The notes under the pieces: model-generated | Database searches by the model: none | Seen by the model: only the letters and a program-made list of their open reading frames with translations | What the model was told of the DNA's origin: nothing | Assembly: GCF_023913515.1 (NCBI RefSeq) | Contig: NZ_CP099392.1 | Coordinates: forward strand, 62,001-126,000 | Source: Natronococcus sp. CG52 | GTDB lineage: Archaea; Halobacteriota; Halobacteria; Halobacteriales; Natrialbaceae | Direction: 5' to 3' | DNA: 64,000 nt | Shown: one piece after another, positions 48,363-54,828 of the stretch | Position numbering within the stretch: position 1 is the first letter of the stretch | Layout: every line of letters begins with the position of its first letter | Program-made: the position numbers and the translations under genes

Positions 48363-48383
48363 CACACCGGGTTTCCGGTGAAA
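48363..48383 (-). repeat. ORB-like repeat copy 1
   Basis: Reads CACACCGGGTTTCCGGTG on the plus strand, the reverse of the consensus; part of a CACACACA run. Confidence 0.7.
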
Positions 48384-48516
48384 CGGAACGAGTAGAGGGC
48401 GGACGAGGGGTTCGTCGATGTTCATCTGGTGTTCTCGATCGATCTCGAGACGACCGACCGCCGGGAGAACAAGTCACCATCTCACGAGCCCCGTAGGAAA
48501 CGAACACTATCAAACT

Positions 48517-48537
48517 CACACCGGATTTCCGGTGAAA
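48517..48537 (-). repeat. ORB-like repeat copy 2
   Basis: Reads CACACCGGATTTCCGGTG on the plus strand; reverse orientation, one base different from copy 1. Confidence 0.7.
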
Positions 48538-48539
48538 GA

Positions 48540-48926
48540 TCGTTCTTTCTATCCGCTTCCTACCCATACCCATAGAAAGAATCACAGTAAGAATCCAGAA
48601 GCAGACATCACTACAGATAGGGGCCGAGTCCATAGAGCTCCAAGATCTATAGGTAGTAGCTCCATAGACGGTTCCCATAAATATATAGGTAGTTTTATTA
48701 CCCTCCAGAGAGTAAAGTCCATTGAGTTAATCACATATATTAGAGAGTGACGAAATGTCACGTTAGTACTTTCGTGTTTCCAGGTGATTCGCACCCGAGA
48801 TCTCTCGTCTCTCTATTTTAGAACTCGTTTGTGTCGGGCGCGCACTGCACTAACACGATCATTGACAGGCACCTCCCCGCTTTCGAACCCCCGTTTCTCC
48901 TGCAGCACAATCGCCCTCACATCCTA
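48540..48926. other. AT-rich segment between inward-facing ORB-like repeats, candidate unwinding element
   Basis: Contains AT-rich tracts (ATAAATATATAGG near 48678, CACATATATTAG near 48731) and repeated CTCCA/CTATAGG words. It is bounded by minus-strand copy 2 and plus-strand copy 3. No gene is supported here. Confidence 0.45.
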
Positions 48927-48947
48927 TTTCACCGGAAATCCGGTGTG
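48927..48947 (+). repeat. ORB-like repeat copy 3
   Basis: TTTCACCGGAAATCCGGTG followed by a long TG run; forward orientation. Confidence 0.7.
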
Positions 48948-48975
48948 TGTGTGTGTGCCGCCGAAACTCTCAAGT

Positions 48976-48996
48976 CAATTCACCGGAAACACGGTG
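48976..48996 (+). repeat. ORB-like repeat copy 4, next to the orc start
   Basis: TTCACCGGAAACACGGTG, forward, ending 9 nt before the orc ATG, where initiator binding would also repress its own gene. Confidence 0.65.
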
Positions 48997-49005
48997 CCTG
49001 AGTAA

Positions 49006-50220
49006 ATGCCCACATCCGACGATCTCTTTATTCGAGAGGATCCGATTTTCATCAACAAGGAGCTTCTCGAGATCAGCCATCTCCCGGACGAGGGGCGGAT
49101 TGTTGGTCGAGACGAAGAGATTAGCCAACTTGCTAACGCAGTCAATCCCGCAATCTTCGGACAGAGTCCGAGCAACGTGCTCATTTACGGAAAAACCGGG
49201 ACTGGAAAATCTCTCTGCGCGAAGTACGTTTCCAGACGACTCGTCGAGACTGCCGAAGAAGAAGGGATCACAGCCGTCTTCGCCTACGTCGACTGCGCTC
49301 AGGATACCACCGAAACGCAGGCCGTCCAGACGATCGCGAGCTCCGTCAATATCGATTCGACGGATATCTACATTCCCGACAAGGGTATTAGTACGGCGAC
49401 CTACTACAAACGACTCTGGCGGCTGCTCAACCAGGAGTATGATGTTGCACTGATCATCCTCGACGAGATCGACAAACTCGAGGACGACGCGATCCTGATG
49501 CAACTCTCTCGTGCTGGCGAGGCGGGGAAAGTAACGGATTGCAAGATCGGGGTTATGGGGATCAGTAACAAGATCAAGTACAAAGACCGGATGGACGAAC
49601 GGGTCAAGTCCAGTCTGTGCGAACGGGAGTTCGTCTTTCCGCCGTACAATGCGAGCCAACTCAACGAAATTATGGTCGCACGGAGTGACGCGTTTCGGGA
49701 CGGCGTTCTCGAGGACGCAGTCATTCCGCGGGCGGCAGCGCTTGCCGCTCGCGAGCACGGTGATGCCCGTAAAGCGATCGATATTCTCCGGTATGCCGGC
49801 GAGATCGCGCAAGCGAAGGACGTTGACATCGTCCGGGAGAAGTTTGTCGTCCAGGCCCGCGAACGTGCGGAGGTCGACCGATTCCGTGAACTTATCCGCG
49901 GTTCGACGCCCCACTCCCGGTACGTCCTGCAGGCGTTGACCGTGCTCTCTCTCGATCACCAGCGCGACGGTGGTTCCGTAGAGCACCACGGGTTCCGAAC
50001 GACCCGAATCTACGACGTCTACGAACAGATCTGTCGGCAGGAAGGAACCGATGCACTCTCACTCCGCCGCGTTCGGGATCTGCTAAAGGAACACGCCTTT
50101 CTCGACATTCTCGAACAGACACGCCACAGTGGCGGGAGTGCCGAAGGGAGCTATACCGAACACACGCTCCTCGAGAACCCTGAAGTTGTCAAAGACGTGC
50201 TCGAAGATACGGTCGAGTAA
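49006..50220 (+). CDS. Orc1/Cdc6 family replication initiator
   Basis: A 404 aa AAA+ ATPase with C-terminal winged helix. Walker A GKTGTGKSLCAKYV lies at about 62-75, Walker B LIILDEIDKLEDD at about 153-165, sensor 1 in IGVMGISNKIKYKDRM, and sensor 2 region AREHGDARKAIDILRYAGEIA. The last 120 residues (SRYVLQALTVLSLDHQRDG, IYDVYEQICRQEG, LRRVRDLLKEHAFLDIL) form the origin-binding winged helix. It binds ORB elements and loads MCM. Flanked by ORB-like repeats on both sides, so it probably drives the adjacent origin. Confidence 0.93.
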   Translation: MPTSDDLFIREDPIFINKELLEISHLPDEGRIVGRDEEISQLANAVNPAIFGQSPSNVLIYGKTGTGKSLCAKYVSRRLVETAEEEGITAVFAYVDCAQDTTETQAVQTIASSVNIDSTDIYIPDKGISTATYYKRLWRLLNQEYDVALIILDEIDKLEDDAILMQLSRAGEAGKVTDCKIGVMGISNKIKYKDRMDERVKSSLCEREFVFPPYNASQLNEIMVARSDAFRDGVLEDAVIPRAAALAAREHGDARKAIDILRYAGEIAQAKDVDIVREKFVVQARERAEVDRFRELIRGSTPHSRYVLQALTVLSLDHQRDGGSVEHHGFRTTRIYDVYEQICRQEGTDALSLRRVRDLLKEHAFLDILEQTRHSGGSAEGSYTEHTLLENPEVVKDVLEDTVE

Positions 50221-50243
50221 TTTCTATCCCTGCGGCGTCTCGA

Positions 50244-50264
50244 ATTCACCGGAAACGTAGTGTG
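50244..50264 (+). repeat. ORB-like repeat copy 5
   Basis: ATTCACCGGAAACGTAGTGTG; the left half is intact, the right arm is degenerate. Confidence 0.6.
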
Positions 50265-50284
50265 TTTTGTAATACCGCTTTCCC

Positions 50285-50305
50285 TTTCACCGGAAACCCA
50301 GTGTG
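50285..50305 (+). repeat. ORB-like repeat copy 6
   Basis: TTTCACCGGAAACCCAGTGTG with one change in the right arm. Confidence 0.7.
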
Positions 50306-50322
50306 CTCGCAACAGACTCTTA

Positions 50323-50343
50323 TTTCACCGGAAACCCGGTGTG
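50323..50343 (+). repeat. ORB-like repeat copy 7
   Basis: Exact consensus, core CACCGGAAACCCGGTGTG; 38 nt from copy 6. Confidence 0.75.
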
Positions 50344-50505
50344 TTCGCTATCGGGGAAGGGCAGCCATGACGACGGGAACTGTTAGTCGGAAATTTTCAT
50401 TCTCGCTCTCCGATCGTCTCTCCATCCGTTTGTCCCTGGTTTGATCCGGTTCGGAAAGCTTGTCGGCCTATTGTGCCGGCTTCAGACGGCGGTTGCAATC
50501 CTGCT

Positions 50506-50526
50506 GTTCACCGGAAACCCGGTGTG
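50506..50526 (+). repeat. ORB-like repeat copy 8
   Basis: Consensus core CACCGGAAACCCGGTGTG, forward orientation. Confidence 0.75.
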
Positions 50527-50551
50527 GATGACAGTAATCAGAAGAACTGGA

Positions 50552-50572
50552 GACACCGGGTTTCCGGTGAAA
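50552..50572 (-). repeat. ORB-like repeat copy 9
   Basis: ACACCGGGTTTCCGGTGAAA on the plus strand; the only reverse copy downstream of orc, 25 nt after copy 8. Confidence 0.75.
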
Positions 50573-50626
50573 CGGGATCTCTGAATCTTGTTATCCATTA
50601 ACAATAAACGTTGGCATGAGACTCAT

Positions 50627-50647
50627 ATTCACCGGAAACTCGGTGTG
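50627..50647 (+). repeat. ORB-like repeat copy 10
   Basis: ATTCACCGGAAACTCGGTG, forward, one change in the centre. Confidence 0.7.
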
Positions 50648-50821: not shown

Positions 50822-51958
50822 TTGGCTCGCTCCGAACCGCGCTCCTGTCGTGCGGTCGGTGTGGAAACCGTTAGTTGGTATTATAGCGACGGACAGACAC
50901 ACTATATCGCAGAAACGGACGGAGGCGCGAGCAGCGAGATCGAATCAGCCGGATTCGAGATCCTCTCACCGGTCGTCGATGGTACTGTCGTTCTCGTGAA
51001 GGGACCCGAGGGTGCGGCCGACGAACTCAGCAACGTGCGCGGCGTATCTACGGTAGTTTCCGACTTTGTGGTCGAACTCGAGGGCCCGAACGTCTCCTCG
51101 AAAGCTGTCGACACCGAAATCGACGATGTCGTCGATGACGGGGTATACGACGGGTATCTCCGGAACGAACAGGTCCAGCAGGGCCGTGAGGCCCACGAGT
51201 ACGCGACCGGTGCGGGACAGACGGTCGCCGTTATCGACACCGGTGTCGACGACACGCACCCCGATATCGATGTCGATATCGAACGCAGCACGACGATCAT
51301 CGACGGTCAACCGGACGAGCACATCGGCGATTCCGGATATCACGGGACGCACGTACATGCAATTGCCACGGGATGCCGACGTTGGGGCGTACCGCCGACT
51401 GTTCGAACCAGTTGCTAACAGCGTAGCGCGCGACGGAACGGTACTGGTTGGATCGGGTGGCAACGACGAAACCGATCTCAATGGCGGCTGGCTGCGTCTC
51501 TGGAACGGTCTCGACGGCGTAATGGGCGTAAGTGCTCTGACGCACGGGGCGAACTGTCCTACTACTCCAACTACGGTACCAGCGACATCGATGTTGGTGC
51601 GCCTGGCGGCGACTACGAAACACAGGAGAAGACGTTCACCGAGGACTTCGACGAAGTCGCACGTCCCTGGCCGCTCAACGCGATTTTCTCGACCGTTCCC
51701 GGGGAAGATTCTCTCTCCGACCCCTACGTGAATACGACGATCGATGGGGACGCGTACGGGTGGCTGATGGGTACCTCGATGGCGGCCCCGCAGGTAGCGG
51801 GTCTCGCTGCACTCGTCCGGGAACTCGAGCCGGATTTCAGCGCCCGGTACGTTGAGAACGCGATTAAACGGGGGGCGGAGGGGGGAGATGGACAGAGCGA
51901 CGACGAACTCGGCGCGGGGCGCACGAACGCGCTGGATGTTGTCGAATCCCTCGATTAG
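50822..51958 (+). pseudogene. Decayed subtilisin-like (S8) serine protease
   Basis: Three pieces of a halolysin-like subtilase lie in two frames. Piece 1 (50822 to about 51370) has an inhibitor-like propeptide, the catalytic Asp in VAVIDTGVDDTHPDI and His in GYHGTHVHAIA. Piece 2 (about 51371-51550, shifted frame) reads DADVGAYRRLFEPVANSVARDGTVLVGSGGNDET. Piece 3 (51551-51958, first frame) reads ELSYYSNYGTSDIDVGAPGG and the catalytic Ser in GTSMAAPQVAGLAALV. About 50-70 residues that should follow the His motif are missing and no signal peptide remains, so it is a true pseudogene, not one sequencing slip. Confidence 0.85.
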
Positions 51959-52203
51959 CTCCTTCTCGAGGAACCTACTAATTGCTCGCCGCCGCTGCCG
52001 GTCGTCGTTTCGTCACCGACGTCGCGACTTCGAGCGTCGACACGAACCGGCTTCTCACTCGGTACTTGTAACCCCAGTAAGTTCGCTTTGATTTCTCCCT
52101 GCCTCGAGTGACTGCGCTACGCGCCGAAGCTACCTATCGGACAGTTCGTCTACTATCTGGGTTACTCAGAGTGGAACGTCTCGGTGAGGTGTGTTCGTAA
52201 CCT

Positions 52204-52293
52204 ACAATAGGTGCAATAGTTACCTCGCCTAATCCGTCTACCCTATCTATCCAATATATTATCCCTATTGCACCTATTATCCCTATTGCACCT
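52204..52293. repeat. Iterated CTATTGCACCTATT motif upstream of parA
   Basis: ATTATCCCTATTGCACCT occurs twice in perfect tandem (52258-52275 and 52276-52293). The core recurs inverted as AATAGGTGCAATAG at 52206-52219. Such iterons in front of parA genes often act as the centromere or as ParA/partner operator. Confidence 0.6.
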
Positions 52294-52390
52294 TTCGGAG
52301 CTATACCAGCTACTGTAGCTGCCTGCGGTAGAATTATATGCCTCTCGTTGGATGTGTGTACTGTCCGCTGAAACAGACGTTCGTGGTACA

Positions 52391-52402
52391 ATAGGTACCT
52401 AT
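52391..52402. promoter_or_regulatory. 12-bp palindrome in front of parA
   Basis: ATAGGTACCTAT is a perfect palindrome 31-42 nt before the parA ATG and shares the AATAGGT word with the upstream iterons. Position suggests an operator overlapping the promoter. Confidence 0.4.
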
Positions 52403-52432
52403 CGAAATTTGAAGCGGGTGGAGTCACACAAC

Positions 52433-53320
52433 ATGACAACAACAGACGAGCCCCGCGCCGTGAGCGTGGTCATCCTGAAAGGTGGTGTCGGCAAGTCAAC
52501 GACCTCGATGAATCTCGCGCGCCAGCTCGCCGAGCGTGGTCCGACGCTGTTCGCGGACCTGGATCCGAACGGTCACGCGACGAACGGCCTCGGATTCACG
52601 GACGCATACCGGAGTGAGACGAATCTCGGTGACGTCATCCTCGACGGAAACGCGACACCGAAGGACATCATTCGGCAGACCGAGTACGGCTTCGATCTGC
52701 TGCCGTCGTCGAACACGCTCGAGGACGTCGAAAAGGACCTCGCCGGCGCGATGCAGGGATCGGCCCGCGTCAAGTCCAACATCGTCGACCCGCTGCTCGG
52801 CTCCGCGTACGAGTACATGGTCTTCGACTGCCCGGCCTATCCAGGGATGCTCAACAACAACGCCCTGGTCGCGACGGGCAACGTGATGATCCCGATCGAA
52901 CCCGGGTCGAGCGCGATCGGTGGGTACAAGCGAACGATGGAGCGGTTGATCGAACCGGCCCGTGAGTACATCGACGTCGACGTCCTCGCCATCGTACCCA
53001 ACAAACTCGAGGATCGAATCGATCAACGGACCGAAGATCGGGAACTGCTCGAGAACCTGAACACGGCGAGTTACGAGGTGAACCCCGGCCAACCGCTTCC
53101 CGAGGTCGTACCGGCGTTCGCTCGCATTACGGCCGAGGAGTTCGAGCAGATCGACGAGGGTGAAATCAGACCGCCGAAGCCCGGCATTCGGCACCGTGCA
53201 GCGCTCTCTCGGTCGCTCAGCGCAGAACAGCCACTCCAGGACTACGATCCGGAGTGCGATCAGATCGAGTACTACGAGGAACTCGCGGCGATCGTCGCGA
53301 ACGGAGGAGTCGAACGATGA
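52433..53320 (+). CDS. parA: ParA family plasmid partition ATPase
   Basis: A 295 aa ParA/MinD-type ATPase. The deviant Walker A KGGVGKST is at residues 16-23, switch I DLDPNGHATNGLGF near 42-55, and Walker B YMVFDCPAYPGMLNNNAL near 125-142. It would move plasmid DNA bound by a partner. The stop overlaps the next start (ATGA). ATG 52433 is chosen because the ATPase strand begins 10 residues later; a longer reading from 52352 has no family-like sequence. Confidence 0.92.
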   Translation: MTTTDEPRAVSVVILKGGVGKSTTSMNLARQLAERGPTLFADLDPNGHATNGLGFTDAYRSETNLGDVILDGNATPKDIIRQTEYGFDLLPSSNTLEDVEKDLAGAMQGSARVKSNIVDPLLGSAYEYMVFDCPAYPGMLNNNALVATGNVMIPIEPGSSAIGGYKRTMERLIEPAREYIDVDVLAIVPNKLEDRIDQRTEDRELLENLNTASYEVNPGQPLPEVVPAFARITAEEFEQIDEGEIRPPKPGIRHRAALSRSLSAEQPLQDYDPECDQIEYYEELAAIVANGGVER

Positions 53321-53790
53321 GCAATCCGTTCGACGACCTGAAAGCCGAGAGCGGCGAGGACGGAGAGGGTGAGGTAGACGGAGAGGATAGAACGGTCGGG
53401 GTCGAGGCCGAGACCGACGAAGCGGAGCCCAGTTCCAGTTCGGATGCGCTCGAACCCGACGTAACGCAGGAAGCGCCGACCTCGAGCCCGGATTCGAAGT
53501 CGAAATCGGGGGCCGCTGTCGAACAGGAGTCGCGCGAGTCGACGCCGCCGGCGGATTCTGGTCCGGCCTTCGAGTACTCGACGGTGCGTCAGCGCCCGCT
53601 GTACGCCCGTTCCGAAACGTGGGACGATTTCGAAAAAACGCTTCGAACGTCGATCACTCCGACGCTGGCCGAAGAGGATGTCGTCGACGAGGAAACCCGC
53701 GAGATACACGACGCAGTGCTTCGACTCGCAGCCTCCGAACCGGAACGAGTTGCGGAACTGGTGCTCGAGGCTCGCCGTCAGCCGGAGTGA
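53317..53790 (+). CDS. Small acidic ParA partner protein, unknown family
   Basis: A 157 aa protein whose first half is acidic and low-complexity (DDLKAESGEDGEGEVDGEDR, SSSSDALEPD). The last 65 residues look folded and helical: RPLYARSETWDDFEKTLRTSITPTLAEEDVVDEETREIHDAVLRLAASEPERVAELVLEAR. The ATG overlaps the parA stop, so the two are co-translated. By position it should be the DNA-binding or adaptor partner of ParA, although no ParB or ribbon-helix-helix domain is evident. Confidence 0.75.
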   Translation: MSNPFDDLKAESGEDGEGEVDGEDRTVGVEAETDEAEPSSSSDALEPDVTQEAPTSSPDSKSKSGAAVEQESRESTPPADSGPAFEYSTVRQRPLYARSETWDDFEKTLRTSITPTLAEEDVVDEETREIHDAVLRLAASEPERVAELVLEARRQPE

Positions 53791-53903: not shown

Positions 53904-54089
53904 CACGGACGTTCTCGCTCGCGAACAGCACGACAGAGCCGTACGAAGGAGCCGAGACAGCTATCCGGCTTTTGTGAGAGGGGTGACCGGATCGTTTACG
54001 GAGGAAAGCTCCTGTAAACCGGTATCATATGCCGATTACCATATGCAACAGGGGTGGCCACGTTAGACGTGACTGGGAAACGGGAGCGT

Positions 54090-54828
54090 ATGCACAATCA
54101 ACGCGTCCTCGTGATAGGCGGTGCTGGATTCATCGGTTCAAATCTTCCAAACGAACTGGTAAACGGCAATCAGGTTTACGGTCGACAACTGCTATCTAGG
54201 TACCCCAGAGCGCCTCTCGTCGGCCGGCGAATTCGTCGAATCCAGCGTGCTCGATTCGGATTTTCCATCGGACGTTGACGTTGTCTTCCACATTGCCGCG
54301 CTTTCGTTGTACGCTACGCACGAAGCGAATGTACGGCGGGGCGTGCGGGTCAACGTCGAGGGATTGGCTAACGTCGTCGAGACGGTCCGAAACAGCGACT
54401 GCGATACAGTCGTGTGGGCCATCGACCTCCTCGACTTCCGGGGGTGAGACCGAACCGCCGTCGGAAGAGATGCCCGTGGAGGTGAAGACGGGGACGAAGC
54501 GTCGGAACTCGCACGTGAACGCTACGGTGAGTACGCGAACATCGTTTCACAGTTCGTCGAGGGATCGTGATCGATCTCCGGAACTGTCTGGCGACGGCAC
54601 ACAGACGCGCGACTTCACCCGCGTCACGGATATCGTTCGCGGCTTCGAGATGACCGCGGACTACGGTTTCGGCGGCATCTACAACCTGCCGCGAATTCGA
54701 TTTCGGAAGACGTCTGCGTCGAGGACGCCTGTGCGGACACCTCGAGGATTCGAGAGGCGACGGACTGGGAACCCGAAATCGAGATCCGCGACGGGATACG
54801 ACGGGTTTGTGCGCCGTACATCGACTGA
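54090..54828 (+). pseudogene. Decayed NAD-dependent NDP-sugar epimerase/dehydratase
   Basis: Family motifs appear in order but across changing frames. MHNQRVLVIGGAGFIGSNL (NAD-binding GGAGFIGS) shifts near 54180 to VDNCYLGTPERLSSAGEF and VFHIAALSLYATHEANVRRGVRVNVEG, which runs to VVWA near 54421. A third frame gives STSSTSGGETEPPSEEMPVEV, then ELARERYGEYANIVSQF with a large internal deletion. GDGTQTRDFTRVTDIVRGF and, in a last frame, EATDWEPEIEIRDGIRR follow, ending at TGA 54826-54828. The catalytic YxxxK region is lost. Original role: sugar nucleotide synthesis for surface glycans. Confidence 0.82.

Follow-up and report, generated by a model that had tools for sequence, protein, structure and literature searches.

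Our analysis suggests with good confidence that the stretch in front of parA is the cis site at which a ParA-type system partitions a haloarchaeal plasmid, namely a replicon-specific array of 9-bp units that would be bound by the partner protein of ParA, would repress the operon and would be supplemented by dispersed loading sites on the same plasmid. The window, i.e., the whole stretch of 64,000 nucleotides that was analysed, corresponds to C2:62001-126000, where C2 is a 393-kb plasmid contig in a genome of 4.74 Mb with three contigs. The elements concerned are as follows (window coordinates).

About 52186..52334 (C2:114186-114334), no strand: array of 9-bp units TA[C/G]CTAnnn with a quasi-palindromic core in two convergent arms, the main candidate centromere/operator (PWM matches >14; 9-bp period in orthologues)
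52206..52219, minus strand: inverted copy AATAGGTGCAATAG, the left arm of the array, 100% complementary to 52265-52278 (pair I4)
52257..52292, plus strand: perfect 18-bp tandem TATTATCCCTATTGCACC x2, equal to four 9-bp units (repeat search, family D1)
52328..52338, plus strand: TATA-like box GTAGAATTATA closing the array on its parA side, 105 nt upstream of the parA ATG (locus L001), called promoter by eye
52390..52403, no strand: promoter-proximal palindrome AATAGGTACCTATC with the 12-bp core ATAGGTACCTAT at 52391-52402, a candidate autoregulatory operator (clade-1 conservation)
52433..53320, plus strand: parA, 295 aa, Walker-type ATPase with KGGVGKST near the N-terminus (Pfam AAA_31 1.2e-27, CbiA 4.5e-11; PHROG ParA-like 5.8e-39)
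53317..53790, plus strand: partner gene, 157 aa, proposed array-binding protein (array type follows the partner, not ParA)

The preliminary description of this DNA had reported a perfect 18-bp tandem, an inverted copy and a 12-bp palindrome directly before parA and its partner. All of them were found where it had placed them, with both genes downstream, and the tandem is indeed perfect, but its 18 bp are two 9-bp units and not the true unit length: about a dozen copies of TA[C/G]CTAnnn lie 5' of parA, all in one 9-bp phase (52186-52334). The sequence TACAATAGGT occurs twice, at 52203 and 52387. With a matrix built from the loci of other species, the window excluded, the stretch reached a four-unit PWM score of 29, while ten Markov-simulated versions of the two plasmid-sized contigs gave best scores of <=15.5; the array is beyond chance expectation.

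The ParA in the window is a ParA-family ATPase with a deviant Walker A motif, and its relatives include solved Soj/ParA structures. It starts at its Walker A motif, and the N-terminal DNA-binding domain is absent. The partner, an acidic protein, consists of a conserved N-terminal NPFDDL, a variable acidic linker and a conserved C-terminal domain of ~75 aa, and the two genes overlap by 4 nt in the window and in most clade-1 loci and by 1-11 nt in clades 2-5. A profile of the C-terminal domain matched 201/391 haloarchaeal genomes belonging to 57/86 genera; partner sequences from L010, L014, L015, L018, L019, L025, L027, L045 and L049 (among others) were left out because wrong frames had been picked automatically. 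The earlier remark that the partner shows no ParB domain held: neither ParB nor any other confident family was found in Pfam, NCBIfam and PHROGs, and Pfam searches with 14 C-terminal domains likewise gave no ParB. A sequence search of solved structures returned nothing convincing (best E 0.056, no SegB chain among the matches), and no sequence match to a ribbon-helix-helix was found in Pfam or the solved-structure chains. AlphaFold2 models were of low confidence both for the full-length partner (pLDDT 61, pTM 0.21) and for its C-terminal domain, predicted as an unstructured stretch followed by three helices (pLDDT 67, pTM 0.36), and Foldseek with the latter model gave no usable match (E >=2). 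Since predictions and Foldseek gave nothing usable, a ribbon-helix-helix fold is not claimed for the partner. Scans for viral homologues revealed no viral relatives of ParA or the partner. Having a partner without a ParB domain, the system is, on its sequence, not a canonical ParABS with a ParB CTPase. With a ParA-family ATPase, a partner gene directly downstream and a repeated cis site, it has the composition of a ParA-type (Walker) partition system; the arrays are a repeated cis site adjoining the parA operon, as such systems have.

The preliminary description had also proposed to look for the motif beside other haloarchaeal parA genes, and a lack of conservation would have spoken against it. 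Instead, conservation of the array extended over the clade and that of its 9-bp design over the class. Among 57 clade-1 orthologous upstream regions (L061, with a truncated ParA, excluded), identity at lags of 9, 18 and 27 was 0.36, 0.36 and 0.33 vs ~0.25 at other lags, and when the units were aligned on ACCTATT, the core A[C/G]CTA recurred at 9-bp steps in both directions. A z>3 for the 9-bp period was obtained in 102/114 upstream regions of partner-linked ParA genes, which are related loci and thus not independent trials. By clade, the regions above this value were 50/56 in clade 1 (the remaining 6/56 stay at z <=3; L056 was dropped for its short upstream region), 6/6 in clade 2a including pNRC200, 5/9 in clade 2b, whose arrays are weak, 4/4 in clade 3, 2/2 in clade 4, 17/17 in clade 5 and 18/20 among partner-linked loci of other families. 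The controls showed z>3 in 2/26 ParA genes without the partner, in 0/74 regions inside parA and in 1/36 regions 1.1-1.5 kb upstream, indicating that the array is linked to the partner family and not to ParA in general. The statistic takes the other multiples of 3 as its baseline and so corrects for the codon period; without this correction, 8/26 controls reached z>3 (7 of them z>4) instead of 2/26. One of these two controls, L198, is a ParA without the partner family; its start is preceded by a different repeated block, GTTTGGAACGACA... (z 5.9), which may represent another array type with no relation to this one.

The period is constant at 9 bp, and the spelling of the unit varies by clade. 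The units are roughly TAGCTAnnn in clade 1, CTATTnnnn in 2a, ATGTannnA (weak) in 2b, ATGTACATn-like in 3, AGnTAnCTn in 4 and GTSTASACn in 5. Fitted blocks scored 89-211 per sequence vs 3-22 in shuffles, the clade-1 fit being made on 19 regions only (every third); for three ParA loci without the partner the block score was 13 vs 14 in shuffles. In cross-scoring, the own-clade matrix was the best in 94/94 regions, a result with some circularity, since most of the small-clade loci had also served to train the matrices. The 20 partner-linked loci of other families were not part of the training; among them, four ParA loci that are 2a-like, three of clade 1 and one of clade 3 scored best with the matrix of that clade.

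The position of the array relative to the promoter was also conserved. In clade-1 upstream regions, copies of TAGGT peak at -210 to -150 and copies of ACCTA at -180 to -120, and from this offset it follows that the arms of the array converge; the TAGCTA core itself is palindromic. The interval from -90 to -60 is nearly without units (core-promoter gap) and is followed by the palindrome AATAGGnnCCTATT, which occurs with >=10/12 matches 28-65 nt 5' of parA in 53/57 clade-1 loci. With the array ending at the promoter of parA and a conserved palindrome lying just 5' of the parA start, the operon is very likely repressed by the proposed binding of the partner, i.e., autoregulated through array and palindrome.

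Further arrays were found on the same plasmid. The window-free matrix detected five array clusters on C2, at 11.6, 37.2, 114.3 (that of the window), 302.1 and 368.8 kb. Their best scores were 29-36, whereas the ten Markov simulations stayed at <=15.5; C3, the other small contig, reached 18.2 at best. Two of the five are copies within an exact 3,479-bp duplication (G000:C2 9199-12677 and 366459-369937), each copy of which contains one dispersed array besides an aldehyde-dehydrogenase-like gene. Thus, the candidate centromere that the preliminary description had placed next to parA and a non-ParB partner was favoured by the comparative evidence, but not as a single site. The exact 3-unit pattern was scanned in 40 genomes: 19 of the 30 with parA had a match, and all matches in them (39/39) fell on the parA contig, while the 10 genomes without parA gave 1 match. 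The 4-unit pattern (<=2 mismatches, 39 genomes) had 130/132 matches on the parA contig in 29 parA genomes, all of them (29/29) with a match, and 2 matches in 10 control genomes. As the parA contig is chromosome-sized in 8/29 genomes, lying on the same contig is little informative there, and without these genomes 94/96 of the 4-unit matches were on the parA contig. The two matches off it were on G073:C1 and G102:C2; the former (G073:C1:495088-495119) is a clade-1-like 4-unit array, which may be an integrated-plasmid trace or an off-replicon site.

The clade-5 pattern behaved in the same way: all 27/27 places were on the clade-5 parA contig, in 11/13 clade-5 genomes, with none in the clade-5 genomes G028 and G016 and 0 in 7 control genomes. 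Six genomes (G023, G025, G101, G104, G107 and G109) contain both array types, each confined to its own contig. Twenty sites >6 kb from parA were re-scored, and all had best 4-unit scores of 24.7-40.3 and were AT-richer than the surrounding 3 kb. When the reversed pattern served as a control for the 3- and 4-unit scans, its matches outnumbered those of the true pattern in many genomes, probably since its core occurs frequently in the GC-rich DNA of haloarchaea; specificity was judged by the genomes without parA and by the location of the matches, not by the reversed pattern. In Halobacterium sp. NRC-1, pNRC200 carries a clade-2a parA and partner, both also present in pNRC100. A CTATTnnnn array precedes the parA of pNRC200; when this plasmid was scanned with the pattern, the array at parA was detected but no convincing dispersed one.

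These locations bear on the possibility that the arrays are operators only, through which the partner would autoregulate the parA operon and, by the dispersed sites, other plasmid genes, partition being carried out elsewhere. The end of the array at a TATA-like box and the palindrome just 5' of parA would suit such a role, and two of the C2 sites precede what by eye are catabolic genes (SMP-30-like at 37.2 kb and aldehyde-dehydrogenase-like at 11.6 kb). However, a soluble repressor could also reach chromosomal genes whereas the matches are confined to the parA replicon; furthermore, the long convergent arrays exceed the need of one promoter and the link to ParA is strict. We consider a purely regulatory role unlikely.

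The preliminary description had called the repeats iterons, and the repeated, AT-richer DNA of the array would suit replication iterons bound by an initiator at an origin. An initiator gene lies ~2 kb away, surrounded by sequences that we take to be origin-recognition boxes.

48369..50641, no strand: seven origin-recognition-box-like sequences TTCACCGGAAACNC flanking orc1 (7 matches vs 0.01 expected)
49006..50220, plus strand: orc1/cdc6 replication initiator gene (TIGR02928 1.2e-124)

However, these origin-like boxes at 48.4-50.6 kb are outside the array, and the boxes near orc1 are probably the origin of the plasmid, apart from the 9-bp array. In addition, the array type tracks the partner of ParA, and several arrays are scattered on one plasmid, so that an origin function of the array is very improbable.

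Which of the two proteins reads the array was indicated by cassettes of mixed descent. In 12/20 loci of other families, ParA and the partner were nearest to different clades, and 11/12 of these discordant cassettes had an array of the partner's type. In the 11, ParA was nearest to 2b (55-65% identity) and the partner to clade 1 (50-56%), with clade 4 a close second and a tie in L228; matrices 1 or 4 scored best on their arrays (16.8-30.7) while 2b gave <=10.8, and L218 has a palindrome of the clade-1 type as well. These 11 cassettes represent about three lineages and are therefore not independent events. The twelfth, L233, has a ParA nearest to clade 5, a partner nearest to clade 1 and a 2a-like array that matches neither, in which AATAG units form two long blocks. 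Because the array type follows the partner in 11/12 cassettes and the window ParA is without an N-terminal DNA-binding domain, the evidence suggests that the array is read by the partner. A precedent for reading by ParA itself would be the type Ia ParAs, which bind to operators of their own, but a ParA that begins at Walker A, together with an array that goes with the partner in the 11 discordant cassettes, makes this extremely improbable. It is scarcely credible that the repeats are a short collagen-like Gly-X-Y coding stretch or chance low-complexity DNA, although a 9-bp repeat, translated in one frame of either strand, would yield a repeat of three residues: the orientation of the units flips within the array, control regions have no such period, and any open frame over 220 nt of array exists in only 16/56 loci, while 17% of shuffles have one; the array is non-coding.

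For the partition site that we favour, we infer the following mechanism. The partner would bind the row of 9-bp units cooperatively, probably with one dimer per quasi-palindromic unit by analogy with omega/parS, and so form the partition complex. Its N-terminal motif, carried on the acidic linker, would reach nucleoid-bound ParA and trigger ATP hydrolysis, by which ParA may pull or space the plasmid copies. Binding of the array at the parA promoter would repress the operon, and the short extra arrays on the replicon would serve as further loading sites. Since each clade of the partner goes with a unit sequence of its own, co-resident plasmids could keep separate identities. A broader proposal, which we put forward tentatively and regard as possible rather than probable, is a class-wide haloarchaeal centromere code, in which an undescribed DNA-binding domain (not ParB, perhaps not ribbon-helix-helix) would read a fixed 9-bp register and coat DNA as a regular filament, with co-divergence of unit and partner creating replicon addresses and incompatibility groups, multiple centromeres per megaplasmid and ParA motors swapped between codes.

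Several known systems resemble this arrangement, here compared in the respects covered by the available portions of the sources. In pSM19035, parS consists of 7-10 contiguous 7-bp heptads, direct and inverted, with several parS per plasmid that overlap promoters; one omega dimer binds each 7-bp repeat, and activation of ParA requires at least 4 contiguous repeats (PMC9499535). The haloarchaeal locus is similar to delta/omega/parS in its small ParA and small partner and in its contiguous short repeats, direct and inverted, at promoters and at several sites per plasmid. However, its units are 9 bp instead of 7, their sequence is diversified by clade, the sites are tens to hundreds of kb apart, and the partner has no detectable homology to omega. 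In Sulfolobales, SegAB has sites in front of segA and others scattered over the replicon (46 motif sites), and SegB is a ribbon-helix-helix protein that recognises the 13-bp palindrome TCTAGASTCTAGA on chromosomes (PMC12284271, PMC5120986). An archaeal ParA orthologue, an archaea-specific partner encoded just downstream and sites both upstream and scattered are common to the two systems, whereas the haloarchaeal arrays are in-phase, made of 9-bp units, mostly plasmid-borne and clade-specific, and the partner is not SegB by sequence search. The best reading, by analogy, is that the haloarchaeal array system would work like omega/parS and SegAB, with adaptor proteins that have no detectable similarity.

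Two other systems share fewer features, again within the available portions of the sources. The AspA-ParB-ParA system of pNOB8, with three genes, a 23-bp palindrome and a ParB homologue (PMC5120986), likewise serves an archaeal plasmid from a site upstream of the operon, whereas the haloarchaeal locus has two genes and no ParB. In Deinococcus radiodurans, cisII/cisMP are direct-repeat arrays upstream of parAB on secondary replicons and aid their maintenance; they resemble the haloarchaeal array in being repeats upstream of par genes but differ in being bacterial, in having ParB homologues and in binding DnaA (PMC7671480). According to the available portion of a 2025 ParB-fold survey, chromosomal ParABS is generally absent in archaea (PMC12704722), and a 2016 review listed, among the outstanding questions in its available part, the appearance of archaeal centromeres and their clustered or dispersed arrangement (PMC5120986). 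In the open-access literature searched, we found no description of haloarchaeal plasmid centromeres or of the 9-bp array.

Haloarchaea have several large plasmids per cell, for which the locus offers a concrete site, a candidate adaptor and a code that differs between co-resident plasmids. As pNRC200 of Halobacterium sp. NRC-1 carries a homologous locus, the proposal is testable, and orthogonal arrays with their partners could potentially become a tool for stable, compatible haloarchaeal vectors.

Two further regions of the window were named by eye. At 50822-51958, a subtilisin-like protease is split over several frames, with the catalytic-motif-like DTG, HGTH and GTSMA in different ORFs, and is probably a pseudogene. 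At 54054-54447, the fragmented NAD-dependent epimerase-like ORFs with a GGAGFIG motif are probably degraded as well.
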